Positions 6,412 through 56,842 of a stretch of 64,000 bases of DNA are shown here, piece after piece. Each line of letters begins with the position of its first letter. Position 1 is the first letter of the stretch. The DNA is taken from positions 111,207,314 through 111,271,313 of the forward strand of contig OY726559.1 of assembly GCA_963383645.1 (NCBI GenBank), given 5' to 3'. Below the pieces are notes generated by a model. The model saw nothing but the letters and a program-made list of their open reading frames with translations, had not been told where the DNA came from and did no database searches. A program made the translations under genes and the position numbers. This stretch comes from Muscardinus avellanarius (taxonomy: Eukaryota > Chordata > Mammalia > Rodentia > Gliridae).

Positions 6412-6954
6412 ATGGATTTTTAAATGGATGAATTATATGAAATCTCAATTTCTATGAAATACATTCAACAAATGATATGATAGTTAATCTTAAGATGTCA
6501 ATATTTATAATATGCTAGAAGTTATTTATTTTGCAATTATTTAGACATGATGAAAAATTTAAATTGTCAAATTAAAAATGTCCGAGAAGGCACGTACTTT
6601 TAAAAAATTATTTTAGAGATTCTCAGGTTAATAAAAAAATCCCCTAAATAATTAAAAAAAAAAAGCAAACTTTTGGCCATTGCCCTACATTTGTTGAAGT
6701 AAATGCCTAATTTTATCCTCTCAAACTTTGAGGCTAGAAGAAGTAAGGCGTGTACAGGAAGGCGAGCAGCCCCAGACGCAGGCAGTTTTCGAGCCCGTGG
6801 ATACGCACCACGTGGGTCTCCTTTGGGACTCATCTTCGTCTGAATCTACACAGCAGCCAACCCTGGTGCTCCCACTCAAGCGCTCCTCTCTTTCCCCATC
6901 TCAAAGAGAGCCCTTCAACCTTACCCTTCCTTCTTTTTCATCTCTCTCTCTTTC
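6412..6954. other. Unassigned AT-rich sequence
   Basis: No gene or repeat family recognised. Overlapping short frames at 6728-6977 in two phases show no domain. Confidence 0.3.
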
Positions 6955-9506: not shown

Positions 9507-10411
9507 AGTTTTCTAACGTACAATGATTTATCATATCTTTTACAAAAGTGAAAAAATGACTTAAAACATTTCTGCCAGAGCCACGAGATATGGAGAAAAG
9601 CCTTTTTATAAAGAAGTCATTCCCAAGTCATCACGAAGCTGCAATTTTCCAGTCCCTCCCGTGGGACTCAGGTGAAATGCCTTAATTTTTTAGAGCCTCC
9701 ATTTCATAGGCTTCCAACATAGGTGGTGCTGACAGATAACTGATAGACAGGGAGACAAATTTAAATCGCTAATCACTTATTCCTGGGGACAAATTGCTAC
9801 TATATTCCTGATTGAAAATAATGCCATTTTCCCACTAGGACCCAGCAGGCCCACCCTGGGTTAAGCAAGTTAGCCGTGGTGAGTGGAGGTCCATGCTATA
9901 GGGTCCAGGCGGACCCCCGCCATGGCCGCTAGGTCTGGCTTTATAATTTATCAGTTAATTATCAAAGAGTGGGCCGTCCAGCGTTGAACAGGGGGGTAAA
10001 CAGACAGCAGCAAAGTTATTCTCTGACTCTCTGATGACCAAGAAACTTGTTAGCAACGCGGAATTTCTTTGAGAACCTGCGAACAACACAGCTGTGTTCA
10101 GGCTCTGGGCTCTTTCTGAACGGCCTCTCTAAAATGACAGGCCCTGCTCTGTTTTGGTGGAACTCACCGCGTAGGTCTTATTAAAACACCGAAAGCGCTC
10201 ACTGCTTCTTATTAACACGATCTACGAGCGTGGCCTTACCCTGGAACTGTGCGAGTCCCGAGGAATGCGGGCAGGTTACGGCCTCTGGAGACGACAAAAA
10301 TGTCAAATGCTAGTTATTACCATTGGGAAGTAATCCTGTCTCCCGGGCAGGAACACGCCACAGACGTTCTCTGTGCGCTTGAAGTGAAAAGGATGGAGTG
10401 ATTAGAACCGA
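9507..10411. other. Unassigned sequence
   Basis: Unique-looking DNA with a modest GC rise near 9830-9920 and 10140-10280. No exon, repeat or promoter motif I can defend. Confidence 0.3.
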
Positions 10412-16977: not shown

Positions 16978-17181
16978 TTCATGCGTGGTCTTTCTGCTGA
17001 CCAGCTCCTACCCTGAAATCATCCAGGGGCCACTACAAGTAACCTATCAGCATAACACAAATATTTTGACTACTCAGGACATGAAAGGAATTTTGAAGCT
17101 CTATGCCAGGAACCAGGGACAAAGACAAGATATTTTATAGTGTACCATGACAGGTAAGTAATGTTTTGGTGGCATATACTT
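16978..17181. other. Unassigned sequence flanking the composite element
   Basis: Unique-looking DNA that supplied the target site; it ends in 'acttaagattgaatctg', the left target-site copy. Confidence 0.5.
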
Positions 17182-17196
17182 AAGATTGAATCTGGA

Positions 17197-17342
17197 GGCG
17201 CTGGTGGGGCGCCCCTAGGCGACCCCACTCTCCACCCGGAAGGACCCCGTGGTCCGGCCCCCAGGCCCCGACCCTGGGCGGGTGGGCAGGCGCTGGCGGA
17301 GCAACCCTAGGCGACCCCCCTCTCCACCCGGAAGGACCCTGT
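17197..17342 (+). repeat. 92-bp-period GC-rich duplication at element 5' end
   Basis: Both copies begin 'ggcgctggYgg' (17197 and 17289), contain 'cctaggcgacccc' and 'tctccacccggaaggacc'. The second copy stops after 54 bp. CpG density is far above the flanks. In position it corresponds to a promoter-bearing 5' module, but no promoter activity can be read from it. Confidence 0.9.
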
Positions 17343-17376
17343 AAAAAAGGAAAAGAAAAAGAAAAAAGGAAAATAT

Positions 17377-17910
17377 CGGAGAGGGGTCAAAGAGGTGGCG
17401 GATGCCAGGATACTGGAGATGCAGACAAAACTTATCCAAATGAACTGGAATTATTGGAAAAATTCCCCGCTAAGGAGGACTGTTTCTTCTCTACATTGTT
17501 AAGAATCTGGGACATCACCTGTAAGGAGAGAGACTTTAGCGGAGACCAAGGAGAAAGGCGGTGCTGAAAGCGGTCTCCGCGTTGGCGGTGGAGACTTGTA
17601 TTCAGGCGGAGCAGAAATTGGAGCCTACCAACCTTATTTATTTATTTATTTTTTGGAGAAATTACACCAAAGGTTGAATGCTACCGTCACGCATGCTTAG
17701 GAAGACTGGACAACATTCAGAGTGGAAAAAGAGCTTGGGAAAGATTTGAAATGGTGGAGGCAGTGGCAATGGCAGTGGCCAGTACTCAGGGGAGGCAGAA
17801 ATCTGATGCATTACACCTGGAACCTTTGAAGTAATGACCCCAGAGGCAGAATACTACCACCACCACACACCCTCGAGAATGTGGGACAAATAGTTGGGCA
17901 AAGAGGGTGC
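17377..17910 (+). other. Unrecognised middle domain of the composite element
   Basis: About 530 bp with no similarity I recognise. It contains 'gagagagactttagcgga', weakly matched by a stretch at 27607 ('gagagactttggtggag'), and a short (TTTA)n at 17634-17652. Confidence 0.7.
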
Positions 17911-18530
17911 TCGGATTAGAGCCTGCCGAGGGTTGAGGCAGGTGACAGACACAATAAAGCTGGGATCGGAGCCTGCCGTGAGGCAAGGCCGGTGCTGGGG
18001 CCAACGGCTGGCATCGGAGCCTTCCATGAGGCAAGGCTGTTATTGAGGCCTCTGAGGCCAGGATCAGAGCCTGCCGAGGGGTTAGGCCGGTGCTGGGGCC
18101 AGCGAGGCAGGGATCAGAGCCTGCTGCGAGGCAAGGCCGGTGCTGGGGCCTCCAAGGCCTGGATCAGAGCCTGCTGAGGGGTTTGGCCGGTGCTGGGGCC
18201 ACTGGCCAGCATCGGAGCCTTCCATGAGGCAAGGCCGCTACTGAGGCCTCCGAGGCCTGGATAGGAGCCTGCCGAGGGGTTAGGCCGATGCCGGGGCCAT
18301 TGGCTAACATCGGAGCCTGCTGTGAGGAAGGCTGGAGCTGGGGCCTCTGAGGCCGGGATCGGAGCCAGCTGAGGGATTAGGCCAGTGTTGGGGCCAGCGA
18401 GGCCAGAACGGGGGCCTCCCATAAGGCAAGGCCGCTGCTTGAGCCAGTGAGGTCTGGATCAGTCCACCGGGTAGCCAGGCCACAACTGAGGCCATCAAGA
18501 GTGGGATCAGTACTTGCAACACGGCATGCA
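17911..18530 (+). repeat. VNTR of ~49-bp units with ~198-bp higher-order period
   Basis: Twelve to thirteen units, most starting 'cRgagcctgc': starts at 17967, 18015, 18065, 18115, 18165, 18213, 18263, 18311, 18360, 18409, 18460 and 18508, after a degenerate unit at ~17913. Units are 48-51 bp and share 'ggccggtgctggggcc'. The variant 'ccttccatgaggcaagg' recurs every fourth unit (18015, 18213 and, changed to 'cctcccataaggcaagg', 18409), so four monomers form a 195-198-bp higher-order unit. Confidence 0.93.
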
Positions 18531-18865
18531 CAGAGAAATATCGCAGAAAATTAAAACCAGATGCTTCCCCTAATCAGCAATAACTAGGAGGAAACGGGCA
18601 ACAGGAAGTGGTCGAGCTATAGAAAGGGCCCTATAGTGAAGCAATTAAGGTGACCAATCAGAGGGTATGGAATAGGGGAGGATGGAGCCTCTTTAAAAAG
18701 CAGGAGGTACATAAACATATGTATCAAAGTTAATCACCAAACAAGCATGGGATAGAGGGAGAGGAGGGAATGGGATGGGGACTGGATGAGGGCTAATTGG
18801 ATGATGTGTGCTTGTATATCCTCTCAAGTCTTATATTCCAATGTGATGTATGATTACAATGTACC
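18531..18865 (+). other. 3' region of the composite element
   Basis: Purine-rich ('gatagagggagaggagggaa') then an end of the form 'aatgtgatgtatgattacaa' + 'tgtaccaataaa'. The same end, with few changes, occurs at 27860-27878 and 43770-43795, which suggests an L1-family 3' UTR. Confidence 0.7.
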
Positions 18866-18896
18866 AATAAAAATAAATAAAAAAAGATTGAATCTG

Positions 18897-19229
18897 CTGG
18901 ACCATCATAAATATGTACACTCAAATCTGCTGGAAAATGCCAAACTATATTAAAAATGGTGATTTTAATTTATACCCTCCCTAGTAAAATATTTCTGGGA
19001 GCTCAAATGGTCCCATATTTTGTAGACACTTGGCATTATCGAAGTTCATAATTTTGTCAGTTGGTAGGTACATAGGTCTCTACCTTTTCCTTAAAATAAT
19101 AACTTCCTTTTATTCCTGGAAGTTTTCACTGGGTATGGAATTTTAGACCAGCAGTTATCCCCCCATATACATCCTTCCACTACCTTGTAGCTTCAGTGCT
19201 GCTGTTAAGAACTTTTATTTTTATTTTCT
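18897..19229. other. Unassigned sequence
   Basis: Unique-looking AT-rich DNA to the right of the composite element; nothing recognised. Confidence 0.35.
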
Positions 19230-26790: not shown

Positions 26791-27049
26791 GAGAAAGAAA
26801 GAAAGGGAGGGGGAGAGAGCGAGAGGGAGAGCGAGAGCGAGAGGGAGAGGGAGAGAGAGAGAGAGAGAGGAAGAAGAGAAGAGAAGAGAAGAGAGAGAGA
26901 CAGAGAGAGAGGAAGAAGAGAAGAGAAGAGAGGAGAGAGAGAGAGAGAGGAAGAAGAGAAGAGAGGAGAAAGAAGAGAAAGATAGAGAGGAAGAAGAGAA
27001 GAGAGGAGAGGAGAGGAGAGGAGAGGAGAGAGAGGGAGAGAGAGAGAGA

Positions 27050-27099
<50 letters not shown>

Positions 27100-27274
27100 G
27101 AAGAGAAGAGAAGACAGGAGAGAGAGACAGAGAGAGAGGAAGAAGAGAAGAGAAGAGAGGAGAGAGAGAGAGAGAGGAAGAAGAGAAGAGAGGAGAAAGA
27201 AGAGAAAGATAGAGAGGAAGAAGAGAAGAGAGGAGAGGAGAGGAGAGGAGAGGAGAGAGAGGGAGAGAGGGAGA

Positions 27275-27326
<52 letters not shown>
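26791..27326 (+). repeat. Homopurine tract with 227-bp tandem duplication
   Basis: About 535 bp of almost pure A/G on the plus strand: (GA)n, GGAGA and GAAGA blocks with a handful of C or T interruptions. The marker 'gaaagatagagagg' occurs at 26977 and again 227 bp later, and the surrounding sequence (including 'gagacagagagagagg') is duplicated with it. Long frames on both strands are Glu/Arg or Ser/Leu repeats, not genes. Confidence 0.95.
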
Positions 27327-49475: not shown

Positions 49476-49510
49476 TAAACAAAATTTTTAAACAAAAATT
49501 TTTTAAACAA

Positions 49511-49753
49511 TTTTTTATTGAACATAAGTAGTATACATTTACACTATATTTGGTGCCCTCTCCCCCCCGCCCCCGTTCCCCCCCCCACCAATGGTTGTCC
49601 AGGTTAACCATGTCTTATTCATAATTTTACACATGTTCAGGTGTAGACCCTCATTAATCAAGATCGGCCTTTCTCCTCTCCTATCTTTCCATTAAAACTT
49701 AGCTAGTATTTCCCCTCTAATATCTGGGGTCCTACTGGTATCCTTTGTGTTTT
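49511..49753 (-). other. L1 3' UTR with G-rich tract
   Basis: On the minus strand, four G runs (GGGGGGGGG, GGGGG, GGGGGGG and shorter) lie at 49560-49590, a quadruplex-capable motif as known from L1 3' UTRs of other mammals. It ends in 'gttcaataaaaaattg'. Confidence 0.88.
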
Positions 49754-52700
49754 CTAGTTTGGACATATTAGAGGAAACATGTGTATCTTCTCCTTCTGTG
49801 CTTGGCTGATCTCACTTAACATGATGCTCTCCAGGGCTTTCCATCTTCTTGCAAATGATATAATTTTGTTCTTCTTTATGGCTGAATAGAATTCCATTGT
49901 GTGTATTTCCCACAGTTTTGCTATCCATTCATCTGTTGATGGTGATCTGGGTTGGTTCCATATTTTGGCTATTACAAATTGTGCTGCTATGAACATAGGT
50001 ATGCATATGTTGCTGTATTTCTCTGAATTCAACCCCTTTGGAAAGATACCGAGGAGTGGTATAGCTGGATCATATGGTGGGTCTATTCCCACCTTTCTTA
50101 GGAATCTCCACACAGATCTCCATAGTGGCTGAACTAGTTTGCACTCCCACCAACAGTGTAAAAGAGTTCCTCTTTCCCCACATCCTCGCCAGCATTTGTT
50201 GTTGTTTGATTTCTTTATGCTTGTTACTCTGACTGGGGTTAGATGGAATCTCAGTGTAGTTTTGATTTGCATTTCCCTGATGGCCAATGATGTAGAACAT
50301 CTTTTCATGTATCTATTGGCCCTTTGTATCTCTTCTTTTGTGAAGTGTCTATTTAGTTCACTTGCCCATTTCTTGATTGGGTTGTTTGTTTTGCTAGTGT
50401 AGAGCCTTTTGAGCTCTTTGTATACTCTGGATATTAGCCCCCTATCAGAATGGTGGCTGGTAAAGATCCTTTCCCATTCTGTAGGCTTCCTCTTTAGGTT
50501 ATTGATAGTTTCCTTTGATGAGAAGAAACTTTTTAGTCTGATGTTGTCCCACTTGTTTATTCTTGCTTTAATTTCCTGGGCTTTGGAGGTTTTGTTGAGA
50601 AAGTTACTGCCTGTGCCAATATGTTGTAGTGTTGAACCTATGTTCTCCTCTACTAACTTCACAGTCTCAGGTCTAATTTCTAAGTCTTTGATCCATCTTG
50701 AGTTGATTCCTGTGTTTGGTGAGATATAGGGGTTTAGATTCATCTTTTTACAAATGGTTAGCCAGTTCTCCCAGCACCACTTGTTGAAAAGGCTGTCTTT
50801 TCTCCAGCGTATGTGTTTGGCCCCTTTGTCAAAGATTAATTGACTAAAGATGTGTGGGTTTGTTTCTGTATCTTCTATTCTAATCCACTGGTCAGTATAT
50901 CTGTTTTTGTGCCAGTACCATGCTGTTTTTACTACTATTGCTCTATAGTATAGTTTGAAGTCTGGGATTGTAATGCCTCCTGCGTGTTTCTTGTTATTGA
51001 GAATTGCTTTTGCTATTCTAGGTCTTTTCCTTCTCCATATGAAGTTCATGATTGATTTTTCTAGGTCTCTGAAGAATGTCACTGGTATTTTAATGGGAAT
51101 TGCATTGAACCTATAGATCAGTTTTGGCAGAATGGCCATTTTGATGATATTTATTCTGCCTATCCATGAGCACGGGAGATCTTTCCATCTTCCAAGGTCT
51201 TCTTCAATTTCTTTCTTTAATGTTTTATAGTTTTTGTTGTAGAGGTCTTTTACATCTTGGGTTAGGTTTATTCCTAGGTATTTTATTGGTTTTGAGGTTA
51301 TAGTGAATGGAATTGTTGTTTTTGTTTCCTTCATTGTGGGTTCGTTGTTGGCATAAAGAAAGGCCACTGATTTCTTTAGGTTGATTTTGTAACCGGCAAC
51401 TTTGCTGAATTTGTCAATCAGCTCCAGAAGTCTTTTGGTTGAGTTCTTTGGGTCTTCCAGATAAAGGATCATGTCATCTGCGAATAAGGATAGTTTTACT
51501 TCCTCTCTTCCTATGTGGATTCCTTTGATTTCCTTCTCTTGTCTGATTGCTGCAGCAAGAGTCTCAAGGACTATATTGAAAAGGAGTGGTGATAGTGGGC
51601 ATCCTTGTCTTGTTCCTGACTGTAGCGGAAATTCTTGCAGTTTTTCCCCATTCACTATAATGTTGGCTTTGGGTTTGCAGTATATTGCCTTGATGATGTT
51701 GAAGTACTTTCCTTCTATCCCAATTTTTTGCAAAGTTTTTAACATAAATAGGTGTTGGATTTTGTCAAATGCTTTTTCAGCATCTATTGCTATGATGATG
51801 TGGTTTTTGTTCTTGGTTCTATTTATGTGGTGGATAACATGTATTGATTTGCGTATGTTGAACCAGCCTTGCTTTTCTGGGATGAAACCGACTTGGTCAT
51901 GATGTATTATTCTCTTGATATAGTTTTGAATGCGTATAGCTAGTGTTTTGTTTAGAATTTTTGCATCTATGTTCATTAAGGATATTGGTCTGTAGTTTTC
52001 CTTTCTTGAGGTATCTTTATTTGGTTTGGGGATTAATGTGATACTGGCCTCATAGAAGGAATTTGGAAGAGTTCCATCTCTTTCAATTTCCCGGAACATG
52101 TTATGAAGTATTGGTATTAGTTGTTCACTGAAGGTTTTGTAGAATTCAGCTGGGAACCCATCTGGGCCTGGGCTTTTCTTTGGTGGAAGAATTTTTATTG
52201 CCATTTCTATTTCTTTGGTTGTTATTGGTTGGTTTAGGCTTGCTATGTCCTCTTGGTTGAGTGTAGGAAGGTTAACTGTGCTTAGAAATCTGTCAATTTC
52301 ATCCAGGTTTTCAAATCTATTGGAGTATAAATTTTTAAAGTAGTTTCTGATAATATTTTGAATTTCATCACTATCAGTGGTGATATCTCCTTTTTCATTT
52401 CTAATTTTGATAATTTGAGTTGATTCTCTTTTTCTTTTGGTTAGGTTGGCCAGGGGTTTATCAATTCTATTAATCTTTTCAAAGAACCAACTTTTTGTTT
52501 TATTGATTCTTTGAATTGTTTTTTTGTTCTCTATTTCATTTATTTCTGCCCTAATTTTGATGATTTCTTGTCTTCTGCTGGCTTTGGGAATAGACTGTTG
52601 CAGTCTTTCTAGGTCCTTTAGTTGTGTCATTAGGTTCTTTACTTGGTGATTCTCTGTCCTTCTTATGTGGGCACTCAATGCAATAAACTTTCCTCTTAGT

Positions 52701-53580
52701 ACTGCCTTCATGGTGTCCCATAGGTTTTGGTAAGTTGCGTCTCTGTTTTTGTTTGTTTCCATAAATTTCTTTATTTCTTCCCTAATTTCTGCTCTTACCC
52801 ATTCGTCATTCAATAGTGTATCATTCATTCTCCATGAATTTGAGTACTTTCTTTCGAGTTTCCTGTTGTTGATTTCTACTTTTATTCCATGTGGTCTGAA
52901 AAGATGCATGGAATTATATTACATTTTTTGAATTTTCTGGTATTTTCTTTGTGTCCCAGGATGTGATCTATTTTGGAGAAGGTTCCATGGGCTGCTGAGA
53001 AGAAAGTGTATTCTGTAGTTCCTGGTTGAAATACTCTGAAAACGTCTATTAGGTCCATTTGGTTTATGGTTTCCTTTAGTTCTAAAGCGTCTTTACTCAT
53101 CTTTTGCCTTGAAGATCGATCCAGTGGTGTGAGAGGCGTATTAAAGTCTCCCAGAATTATTGTATTTGGGTCTACTTGGGATCTTATGTCCAGAAGGGTT
53201 TGTTTTACAAATGTGGTTGCACCCACATTTGGGGCATAAATATTTACTATCATTATATCTTCTTGGTGTATTGTTCCTTTTAATAAAAGGAAGTGCCCTG
53301 ATTTGTCTCTTTTGATGTGTTTTAGTTTAAAGTCTGTTTTTTTGGATATCAGGGTTGCTACCCCTGCTCTTTTTTGGTCACTGGTGGCATGGTATATCTT
53401 TTTCCATCCTTTCACCTTCAGCCTGTGAATGTCTTTGGCTGTGAGGTGAGTTTCTTGCAGACAGCATATATTTGGATTATGTTTCCTAATCCACATTGCC
53501 AGTCTATGTCTTTTGATTGGTGAGTTAAGTCCTTTGACATTAAGAGATATTATTGAAATATGATTTTTGTTTTCTGCCAT
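49754..53580 (-). pseudogene. L1 ORF2 (endonuclease-reverse transcriptase), one frameshift
   Basis: Starts at 53580. The endonuclease part (232 codons to 52882) has all key residues: N14, E43, D145, N147, D205 and H230. Right after H230 the frame shifts by one base (about 52886-52893), giving a stop at 52882-52884; the remaining 1,051-codon frame (52909-49754) carries the reverse transcriptase with D376 in 'AIDAEKAFD' and the FADD motif (D478, D479, numbered in that fragment) and the C-terminal CX3CX7HX4C knuckle (C906, C910, H918, C923). The rest reads without stops. In L1, ORF2p nicks target DNA and reverse-transcribes RNA on site. Because the shift separates the two activities, this copy should not make full ORF2p unless the base is a sequencing error. 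Confidence 0.95.
52886..52893 (-). other. Frameshift position in L1 ORF2
   Basis: The endonuclease frame reads ...SDHM-E-stop while the next frame resumes with ...HGIKVEIN. The change is a single-base loss relative to a continuous frame. Could be a true mutation or an assembly error. Confidence 0.85.
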
Positions 53581-53625
53581 TTTGTGTTCTGTCTACTCTT
53601 GGGTGGTGTGATCTTTCTTCTTTAC

Positions 53626-54603
53626 TTAAGTGGTCCACTTATTAACTTCCTCTCTTCTCTGATTCTGAAGTCTGCTTCTTTTTTCTTCCTTATGATTTAT
53701 TTCTTTAAGAATTTTCTCTGGTGTTGGCTTTGAATTCATGAATTTTTTGAGATTCTGTTTATCCTGAAAGACTCTGACTTCCCCATTGATCTTGAATAGT
53801 AGTTTTGCTGGATAGATGAGCCTTGGCTGGGAGTTATTTTCTTCCAGGGTCTGAATCACGTCGTACCAGTCTCTCCTAGCATTCCTGACCTGGGTTGTAT
53901 AGTCTGGGGTGATTCTTATTGTTTTGCCTCTATATGTCACCCGTCCTTTTGTTCTCACTGCTTTTAAGATTCCTTCCTTGGCCTCTATGCTGGTAAATTT
54001 GGTTATTATGTGGCGTGGAGTGTTTTTTCTTTGGTCCTGTCTCAGTGGAGTTCTGTATGCCTCCTGGACTTGAAGATCGAAGTCTCTTTCCATATTTGGA
54101 AAATTCTCTGAGATTATTTCCTTGAAGATATTACAGATGCCCTTGGTCTGTACCTCTATCCCTTCCTCGATGCCTATTATCAGTAAATTAGGGCGCTTCA
54201 TATTATCCCATAATTGCTGGATGTTTAGGTTTTGTTGCTGTAAAGATTTCTGTATATCGCTGACTGTGTTTTCGGTTTGGGATGTACTGTCTTCTAATAT
54301 TGATATTCTGTTTTCCATTTCATCTAATCTTCCAGAATTTCTTTCTATTGCTGTCTTCATTTCACTTATTGCCTCTTTCATTTCATTCCAGACCTCTTTC
54401 TGATTCTTTTTTAGTGTTTCTAATTCACCTTTAACATCCTCTATACTTGTTTTAAATCCTTTCATCATATTGAACATCAAGATTCTGAACTCCCCTTCTT
54501 GCATTTCTAGTAGGTCAGTATTCATGATTTCTGCTGTCCCTTCATAATTCCTGGTTCTCATATTTATAGCGTTCTCTGTCCTGTTTTTCTGATTTCTACC
54601 CAT
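53626..54603 (-). CDS. L1 ORF1 protein (RNA-binding nucleic-acid chaperone)
   Basis: Complete 325-codon frame starting at 54603 (ATG) and ending 45 bp before ORF2. Family role: trimeric ORF1p coats its own mRNA in cytoplasmic particles and acts as a chaperone in retrotransposition. Visible layout: variable N-terminus (1-44), heptad-rich coiled coil (about 45-132), an RRM (about 137-230, from 'KRPNLLIIGIEEG' to 'TYRGKTIRI'), and the C-terminal domain (about 231-290, 'TPDYTTQVRNARRDW', 'QPRLIYPAKLLF'). The basic tail 'HKEEKRSRLQNQRREE' follows. Length fits L1 ORF1 of other mammals (about 330-370). No stop or frameshift, consistent with a young copy. Confidence 0.95.
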   Translation of the reverse strand: MGRNQKNRTENAINMRTRNYEGTAEIMNTDLLEMQEGEFRILMFNMMKGFKTSIEDVKGELETLKKNQKEVWNEMKEAISEMKTAIERNSGRLDEMENRISILEDSTSQTENTVSDIQKSLQQQNLNIQQLWDNMKRPNLLIIGIEEGIEVQTKGICNIFKEIISENFPNMERDFDLQVQEAYRTPLRQDQRKNTPRHIITKFTSIEAKEGILKAVRTKGRVTYRGKTIRITPDYTTQVRNARRDWYDVIQTLEENNSQPRLIYPAKLLFKINGEVRVFQDKQNLKKFMNSKPTPEKILKEINHKEEKRSRLQNQRREEVNKWTT

Positions 54604-55162
54604 CGTTCGTGAGTACTGTGCTTAGTCAAATCTTAATATTAGGAGTTTGGGGGTATTGGTTAGTCAGCAGAGCCTTTCCAGTGTTGAGGGCGGGTGATGT
54701 GTAAGGAGCTGGGGTGATTGGTAAAGGAGTCGGATTAGGTAGAGGATATGTTAGGTTGAGAAAGACTTTAAGTATGATAAGGTAATAACTTGCTAGGAAT
54801 GAGAGAGAGTTAACTACTAGACTCTTGTCGTTGGAAGAGTAATTATAGATATAAGAGATACTTTGAGTATTAAACCAGGAGGTATATTATGGGGAAAAGT
54901 TTTGGGGGAGAAAAGTATGTAGGTTAGTGTGGGTAGGTTTGTAAATAGGGATGATGGAAGGAGCAGACAGACATTAAAAAAAAAAAAAAGAATCCACACA
55001 AGATACCAAGACTATTATGTAATCCAAGAAAAATGAAGGAAAACCAATCAAAGGAGGAGAGTGAAAAAAAAGGAAGGAAGAGGAAGAAAGAGGAAAAAAA
55101 AACAAGAATAAAATAAAAGGAACTAGCAGCTGTGTGAAATAAAAAAATAAGGCAAACTATCC

Positions 55163-55200
55163 AATGTGTATATATATATATATATATCTATATATATCTA

Positions 55201-55233
<33 letters not shown>

Positions 55234-55251
55234 ATATATATATATATATAT
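55163..55251. repeat. (TA)n tract in L1 5' UTR
   Basis: About 88 bp of TA with CTA interruptions. Confidence 0.95.
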
Positions 55252-56765
55252 CAACAAGTTAAAGTAAAAGAAGTGTGGGTTAAAAGAAAAAAAAAATAAA
55301 ACAGCAATAACCATACAAAACAAAAGCACTGTAAAAGCAAAATAAAACAAAACATCCACATTAAAAGTAAAACAAACAGTCCTCCTTATTTACGCATATG
55401 GGGTCAGGTCCAAATAATATGTGCGTATCTGATTGCTTTGGTAGCTTTCAGAATACCATCCAATGTTTCTTAGTTTTCTTTGTACTCTATTTTTATCTTC
55501 TTAAGTCACTCTGTGTGTTTGGACACCTTTCTCTCCTTTAGCTGCTTTAGGTTTATGTGTCCGGATGTCTGATTTCACTGTTATTTGATTCTGTACAATT
55601 CACAGGTTCTGCGAAATTCTAACCTGTGGTCAGCACCTCTGCACTCACCACCCTAGCCTCCAGCCTGTGCTTCCCTACAGCAGGGGTGGAGAATGACCAA
55701 AGTATAATTGGAACCTCCCCCTGAGGTCCTGAGCAGATTTTGTGGCCTGATGGATTTTCTTGTGTCTCTGGAAATTCCAGTTGGGCTAGCCGGTTTGGTC
55801 CCAAGATGATTCCTGGGCAAATGGATGCTGGTTCCTGGATGCCCACACTTACTGCCAGAGCTCTGCCTATTCCAAGAGTGCAGGCTGGATGCGCTGCTAA
55901 TACTGGACCCAAGTGAGAGTGGATGCAGCTGTCTATTGCTGTTGGTATGCTCTTCCAAGGTGTATTGAGCTGTGTTCTCGCTTAGCACTAAGCCTCTGGC
56001 TACCAGGAGGGTGGGAACACCCAGCGGTGGGCCAGGGGTGCAGGGTAGGTGCTCAAGGGTCCAGTGCGTGGTGTCCAGCAATGGTCTCTGCCTCCCGCAG
56101 GATGTAGAAGCTGGGGGTGCCCCAAGGAGATTTCCGGGTCACCCAGGGCTTTCGCAGCCTGGAAGGCAGGCTCTGGCAAGGTGGCAGGGGCTAGACACAC
56201 AAGCAGACTCCAATTTAGGGGTGGCAGTGTACCGGTACTGACTACCAGCAGGGGACCGTGGCGCAGGCAAGTTGCGCGAGGAGAGTGCTCGGTTCTGAGG
56301 CTTGAGCCCGTGCTGGGGGGTTGAGGCTGCGCACATGCTAGGACCCCAACTTACCAGGGCGCCCTCAGGTACCTGACTTGGTGCAGGAATTCGTGGGAGT
56401 CTCTATGCAGTTGTGATCCGGTCGCTGGTGGGCACACAGAATTCTGGTGGCTGCTGCTCGCTGCTTAAGATGCGGTCCTAAGTCCGTTTTTAGTCCTGGA
56501 TTATCTTGCCGCGGTAATATCGGGCAGGCAGCTCCTCGGGCAGCTGCAAAAGCAGCCCGCTGATCGGCGTTCCGATCAGCGTTCAGATTGTATCTGCAGC
56601 AGGTCCCGTGTCCGATCTTTGTTCTTCTTCTTCAAGTTCAGGGTTCCGCCGAGGTACCTGGATGTGTTTTGGTTCCTGGTATGTATTTATTTTGTTGATT
56701 TAGACACTGCTTTCTAAGTATTTAAACTTTATTTGCTTCAGCTACTGAGAAGTGCTGTGTCCCTC

Positions 56766-56780
56766 GGTCGCCATTTTGGA
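56766..56780 (-). promoter_or_regulatory. YY1-like site at L1 5' terminus
   Basis: CCAAAATGGCGACC on the minus strand. In human L1 a YY1 site at the same place sets the transcription start; here it is a motif match only. Confidence 0.6.
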
Positions 56781-56842
56781 AAAAAAATTAAACAAACAAA
56801 AAAAACTAAACAAAATTTTTAAACAAAAATTTTTTTAAACAA

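Follow-up and report, generated by a model that had tools for sequence, protein, structure and literature searches.

A dispersed family of composite elements with a 92-bp monomer array, a GC-rich VNTR and an L1-derived tail in the hazel dormouse

Introduction

The closest described systems are the hominoid VNTR composites. According to the sections of PMC4432496 drawn on here, they have in common a CT hexamer/Alu-like 5' region and a VNTR, while their 3' ends vary; SVA and LAVA carry conserved unit arrays at both ends of the VNTR, and the 3' end of LAVA, in gibbons, is composed of U1-AluSz-U2-L1ME. Passages of PMC4432496 and PMC7353768, which have one author in common, state that VNTR composites are hominoid-specific. 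For the human genome an excerpt of PMC4982230 gives roughly 2,700 SVA copies.

In the literature searched, which had most subscription papers beyond its reach, we met no VNTR composite from a dormouse or a squirrel. Here we describe such an element, 1.7 kb in length, at positions 17182-18896 of the window, i.e. the whole stretch of 64,000 nucleotides that was analysed. A sequence-only reading of this stretch had proposed an SVA-like composite in a squirrel or a relative; the host is instead the hazel dormouse, Muscardinus avellanarius (Gliridae). A contig with mitochondrial genes in the same assembly codes for a cytochrome b 100% identical to the one of this species, other dormice coming next at 90-93%. 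We have little doubt that the element represents, in complete form, a composite family dispersed in the dormouse genome, one that is likely non-autonomous and likely copied by L1 proteins in trans.

Anatomy of the element in the window

The modules of the element are given in Table 1, with those of a young L1 located elsewhere in the window. The 13-bp duplication is a perfect repeat with two occurrences in the window, one at each end of the element, and the target of this copy reads TT|AAGA. As the 92-bp unit ends in C, the single G that precedes the first monomer base is possibly untemplated, i.e. cap-derived. The 92-bp period is seen from a GC-rich stretch of 55 nt, 89% identical when the positions starting at 17196 and at 17288 are compared. 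The duplication, its target, this period, the VNTR of ~49-bp units and the AATAAA with its A-rich tail had all been listed in the sequence-only reading, and each of them was found again in the sequence.

Table 1. Position of the features of the composite element and of the young L1 in the window.
Feature	Position	Strand	Basis or remark
Left target-site duplication, AAGATTGAATCTG	17182-17194	+	TT just before, an L1 endonuclease-type site
Single G between left duplication and first monomer base	17195	+	Sequence
92-bp monomer array, 1.6 units (17196-17287, 17288-17342), GC 0.75	17196-17342	+	Predicted promoter module
A-rich linker	17343-17372	+	Sequence
Unique 5' domain, ~540 bp	17373-17911	+	Recurrence across copies
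VNTR, GC-rich units of ~48-50 bp, GC 0.66	17912-18492	+	Unit recurrence, copy comparison
L1-derived 3' domain, ~390 bp (last part of ORF2 and 3' UTR)	18493-18883	+	L1 alignment
AATAAA polyadenylation signal	18866-18871	+	A-rich tail up to 18883
Right target-site duplication	18884-18896	+	Perfect repeat of the left one
Young L1, nearly complete, not part of the element	49500-56790	-	ORF1 and ORF2 open frames
Young L1 ORF1, open, 331 aa stop to stop	53629-54621	-	Open frame
Young L1 ORF2, two overlapping open frames, one frame break near 52885-52918	49757-53592	-	Open frames

Between 17100 and 19000 of the window copy, Rfam returned one match only, an unrelated archaeal one below threshold. ORF1 and ORF2 of the window L1 had no match inside the element, and a word of the VNTR had 0 matches in viral contigs. 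The unique domain seems to contain a degenerate internal duplication of ~175 bp (window 17582-17900), whose local score of 60 is near the chance range.

A dispersed family

With at most 2 mismatches allowed, the assembly searched (2.497 Gb in 104 contigs) matches a 26-base unique-domain signature at 6,506 places and a 3'-domain signature at 9,932; these are counts of signatures and not of complete elements. Both sets are split about equally over the two strands, and the reversed-pattern controls gave 0. With the whole element as query, 95 matching stretches were obtained from the best 40 of 12,586 candidates. The middle query (17345-17910) and the 3' query (18500-18883) gave 40 matches each, at the best 40 of 4,529 and of 3,235 candidates respectively, spread over many contigs. 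The 5'-part query gave 90 matches at the best 40 of 1,493 candidates, many of them in tandem steps of ~92 bp. Since the architecture recurs across copies, a chance origin of the features of the element is excluded. The many dispersed copies with a common 5' module that the sequence-only reading had asked for as support are thus present, and together with the thousands of signature matches they refute a processed transcript confined to a single locus. Among the matches listed for one contig stretch, 22 of 69 exact unique-domain signatures are accompanied, no more than 6 kb away and in the same orientation, by an exact 3' signature, a proportion lowered by the exactness demanded on both sides and by truncation.

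The whole, middle and 3' queries provided 68 loci, four of which (L009, L018, L039 and L048) are the same places as others. The VNTR lies within 40 bp of the 3' end of the unique domain in all 49 unique copies showing that end, and an AATAAA is present near the 3' end of the 49 copies examined (49/49). Monomer arrays reach 7.65 units (39 copies). The VNTR measures 444 to 1,466 bp (40 copies), many copies differing in steps of ~49 bp, so that its length varies, which had also been asked for as support; unit spacing is mostly 50, 48, 98 or 100 bp. The units at the ends of the VNTR have a high likeness between copies (0.90 and 0.88 on the 5' side, 0.93 and 0.90 on the 3' side), above that of the units 150-200 bp inside (0.81 and 0.80). 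The value at the centre of the array, 0.68, is not comparable with those of the end units because the units are out of register there.

Four of the 30 middle-query loci (L016, L017, L026 and L035) pass from the VNTR to other sequence, without the L1 tail of the element. These could be cases of 3' truncation, of rearrangement or of alternative 3' ends. Four more (L010, L012, L013 and L021) are still in the VNTR at the locus edge. In L013 (C9:21770234-21773363) the monomers are ~2.8 kb away from the unique domain, with L1 sequence between them; this L1 sequence appears to have been inserted into the composite copy at the A-rich linker.

Insertion mode

Insertions were analysed in 38 unique copies with both ends in view, L016 and the four duplicate loci having been excluded beforehand. 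Target duplications adjoin the element in 32 of them, so that copies carry their own, as the sequence-only reading had required for support. They are 10-21 bp long (median 15), at A-rich sites; in the control, where flanks were swapped between copies, duplications were obtained in 2/227. The duplication opens with A in 27 of the 32 cases, and T stands immediately before it in 14 of them all. For the remaining six copies (L011, L029, L044, L045, L046 and L057) no duplication was called. Of the copies retrieved with the 3' query (28 unique loci), 14 have their 5' truncation point in the VNTR, 13 extend as far as the unique domain or the monomers, and one continues up to the edge of its locus. 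Such duplications, A-rich sites and truncation are what target-primed reverse transcription by L1-type enzymes leaves behind. The family inserts in the L1-type manner, i.e. with duplication, at an A-rich site, with a polyA tail and with truncation.

Start sites within the monomer

We mapped 69 array starts onto the 92-bp unit and kept 63. The six dropped were L013, whose array is split off by L1 sequence, L049, L058, L063 and L068, at the locus edge, and L104, whose start is ambiguous. The starts cluster (Rayleigh R 0.52, mean position 58, p about 4e-8, n=63): 46 of the 63 fall at monomer positions 46-77, against 21.9 expected, and 17 fall outside. The interval 46-77 was picked by eye after seeing the data; the Rayleigh test is independent of it. 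This pattern was first noticed in the loci of the other searches, with 23 starts out of 36 in the interval, and then checked in those of the 5' search, with 23 out of 27. For this check 28 further places were fetched out of the best 40, and 27 were usable.

The simplest reading of the clustering is that transcription starts inside each monomer, since random 5' truncation would give uniform starts. From this clustering, each 92-bp monomer is predicted to carry a promoter. In mouse L1, transcription starts inside the monomers and the copies start within a 5' monomer unit, as the dormouse copies do. Both have tandem 5' units in varying number, but the mouse units are ~200 bp long instead of 92 bp, and the dormouse element has a VNTR and neither ORF1 nor ORF2.

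Origin of the 3' domain

The 3' domain (18493-18883) aligns at 74.5% with the L1 end present in L016 (Smith-Waterman score 280, maximum of 111 in 200 shuffles). With seven other old L1 ends the values are 73-76%, and these alignments begin at 18504-18541. The L1-like 3' end described in the sequence-only reading, with a boundary at 18531, is therefore retained, its start varying from 18493 to 18541 with the L1 copy compared. The search with the L1 end of L016 gave 39 other places at 90-93% (best matches scored). Upstream of the four that were fetched lies L1 ORF2, over 200, 188, 117 and 45 aa, the last belonging to a truncated copy. These four copies are mutually 92.6-95.1% identical in overlaps of >340 bp, and 88-97% over shorter ones.

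Aligned with the tail, the young L1 of the window scores 93-112 (78-80% in stretches with gaps), where the shuffles of a similar test reach at most 111. A score at about this maximum does not mark it as the source of the tail, and the A-tail is its sole tie to the element. Judged from these alignments, the 3' domain derives from L1, of a dormouse lineage unlike the young local L1. The partnership with the local L1 that had been put forward is thus, at most, something we infer: the A-tail is common to both, but the 5' UTR of the window L1 is not shared and its 3' end is weakly similar at best. An L1 of this young kind could nevertheless supply enzymes to the element. Of 150 scored L1 ORF2 matches, 31 fall in frames that stay open for 1,279 aa, and the genome thus has a possible enzyme source.

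The VNTR gave two weak matches with L1 5' regions. Its gapped score with an older L1 5' region is 87, above the null of tandem-preserving shuffles (at most 67, n=100); with the reverse strand of the young L1 5' UTR it is 90, and such shuffles reach 100 (n=60). Both matches looked compositional. An LTR origin of 18500-18740, a stretch with CCAAT- and TATA-like letters, was dropped, as the stretch aligns to L1.

Two observations concern the L1s themselves. In its two longest matches to the young ORF2, the older dormouse lineage (L016, L106-L109) is 61-70% identical at the protein level; its copies differ from one another about as much as those of the composite family do. The 5' UTR of the young window L1 begins at a CCAAAATGGCG stretch, and this L1 is flanked by a repeat of ~38 bp, with one gap and one mismatch, which may be its target duplication.

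Comparison with SVA and LAVA

As in SVA, the order of the modules is repeat module, 5' domain, VNTR (30-50-bp units), 3' domain and A-tail, and the VNTR ends are more uniform between copies than the inner units. A central VNTR of 30-50-bp GC-rich units varying in number, by which VNTR composites are recognised, is present. LAVA is likewise a composite without ORFs of its own, with a GC-rich central VNTR, a piece of an older L1 at its 3' end, L1-type duplications and an A-tail. By analogy, the dormouse element would work like these two.

Differences nevertheless appear at both ends. The 5' end of the dormouse element is a 92-bp monomer array followed by a unique domain. Of the 36 copies in which the start of the array can be seen, none has a run of at least two tandem CT hexamers, (CCCTCT)n, at its 5' end, and tandem hexamers are likewise absent from the window copy. 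No SRP RNA match indicating an Alu-like (7SL-derived) region was obtained at E<=1 for 17100-19000 of the window copy. At the 3' end SVA has a SINE-R from HERV-K, whereas the dormouse domain aligns to L1. As to the AluSz and L1ME of LAVA, an L1 3' end is present, in a comparison made with dormouse L1 only, and no 7SL-derived part was found; the host also belongs to a different order. The dormouse genome has 9,932 3'-signature matches, against ~2,700 human copies of SVA in the excerpt of PMC4982230. The claim that this combination of features defines SVA and LAVA was too strong, since hominoid composites have, besides the VNTR, the CT hexamer/Alu-like 5' region, of which neither part was found here.

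Proposed mode of propagation and alternatives

Transcription by RNA polymerase II likely begins within a 92-bp monomer, near position 58 of the unit. The transcript would extend across the VNTR and end at the polyadenylation signal of the L1-derived tail; once A-tailed, it would be the template for reverse transcription at a nick made by the L1 endonuclease, with duplications of 10-21 bp and frequent truncation at the 5' end as the outcome. With starts inside the array, every round would lose monomers, to be regained by expansion of the array at the DNA level.

The element could also be an internally deleted L1, the monomers and the unique domain being its 5' UTR, the tail its 3' UTR, and the VNTR having grown in the deletion. 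The tail is indeed L1, the mode of movement would match, and mouse L1 has 5' UTR monomers of ~200 bp (PMC4982230, excerpt). We nevertheless regard this as unlikely, because, in a comparison covering two L1 5' regions, the 5' UTR of the young L1 and the sequence preceding an older ORF1 (L055), the monomers and the unique domain resemble neither of them above the level of shuffles, and because the unique domain leads directly to the VNTR in 49/49 copies. A large family of processed pseudogenes, derived from a single host gene whose transcript bears a VNTR, has the signature matches, in their thousands, against it. Its processed copies would also have an A-tail, duplications and truncation, but the starts recur within the 92-bp monomer, the transcript end is an L1 3' end, and none of 9 candidate protein relatives of the 5' ORF (17190-17564) was found at E<=10; we give this explanation very little credit. 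As for membership of the hominoid SVA/LAVA lineage, whether inherited or acquired by transfer, the module types come in the same order and unit length and size are similar. But the lack of tandem CT hexamers in 36 copies and of a 7SL-derived match up to E 1 in the window copy indicates that the element is not an SVA/LAVA member, and its tail comes from a dormouse L1; such membership is next to inconceivable.

The dispersed dormouse composite family that we favour would then likely be an independently evolved rodent counterpart of primate SVA and LAVA. A wider proposal, towards which we lean by a little, is that dormice independently evolved a VNTR composite, in some ten thousand copies, from self-renewing promoter monomers, a GC-rich VNTR and a captured L1 tail, the VNTR being therefore a repeatable route for recruiting L1 and not a primate accident. 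A rodent family without the hominoid 5' sequences would constitute a natural replicate of the VNTR composite architecture. The shared features (GC-rich VNTR of ~50-bp units, A-tail) would be candidates for what L1 needs, and the differing ones (Alu-like region, CT hexamer) for what L1 can do without. The role of the VNTR in retrotransposition would become testable by comparing dormouse and hominoids.

Divergence of the family and other observations

Pairwise non-CpG divergence has a mean of 0.040 and a minimum of 0.015 in the unique domain (41 copies), and a mean of 0.0275 and a minimum of 0.0054 in the 3' domain (51 copies); as the samples are best matches to the window copy, these values lean to its subfamily. 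Neutral rates in rodents are 2-4 x 10^-9 per year. With such rates, half of the divergence means a family age of a few to ten million years, which does not imply recent activity.

Elsewhere in the window, 26791-27325 is a GA-rich array of half a kilobase with a 227-bp higher-order repeat (96% matches). A nuclear copy of cytochrome b (G000:C23:90928265-90928822), with 250 bits against 252 for the mitochondrial one, is likely a young numt.
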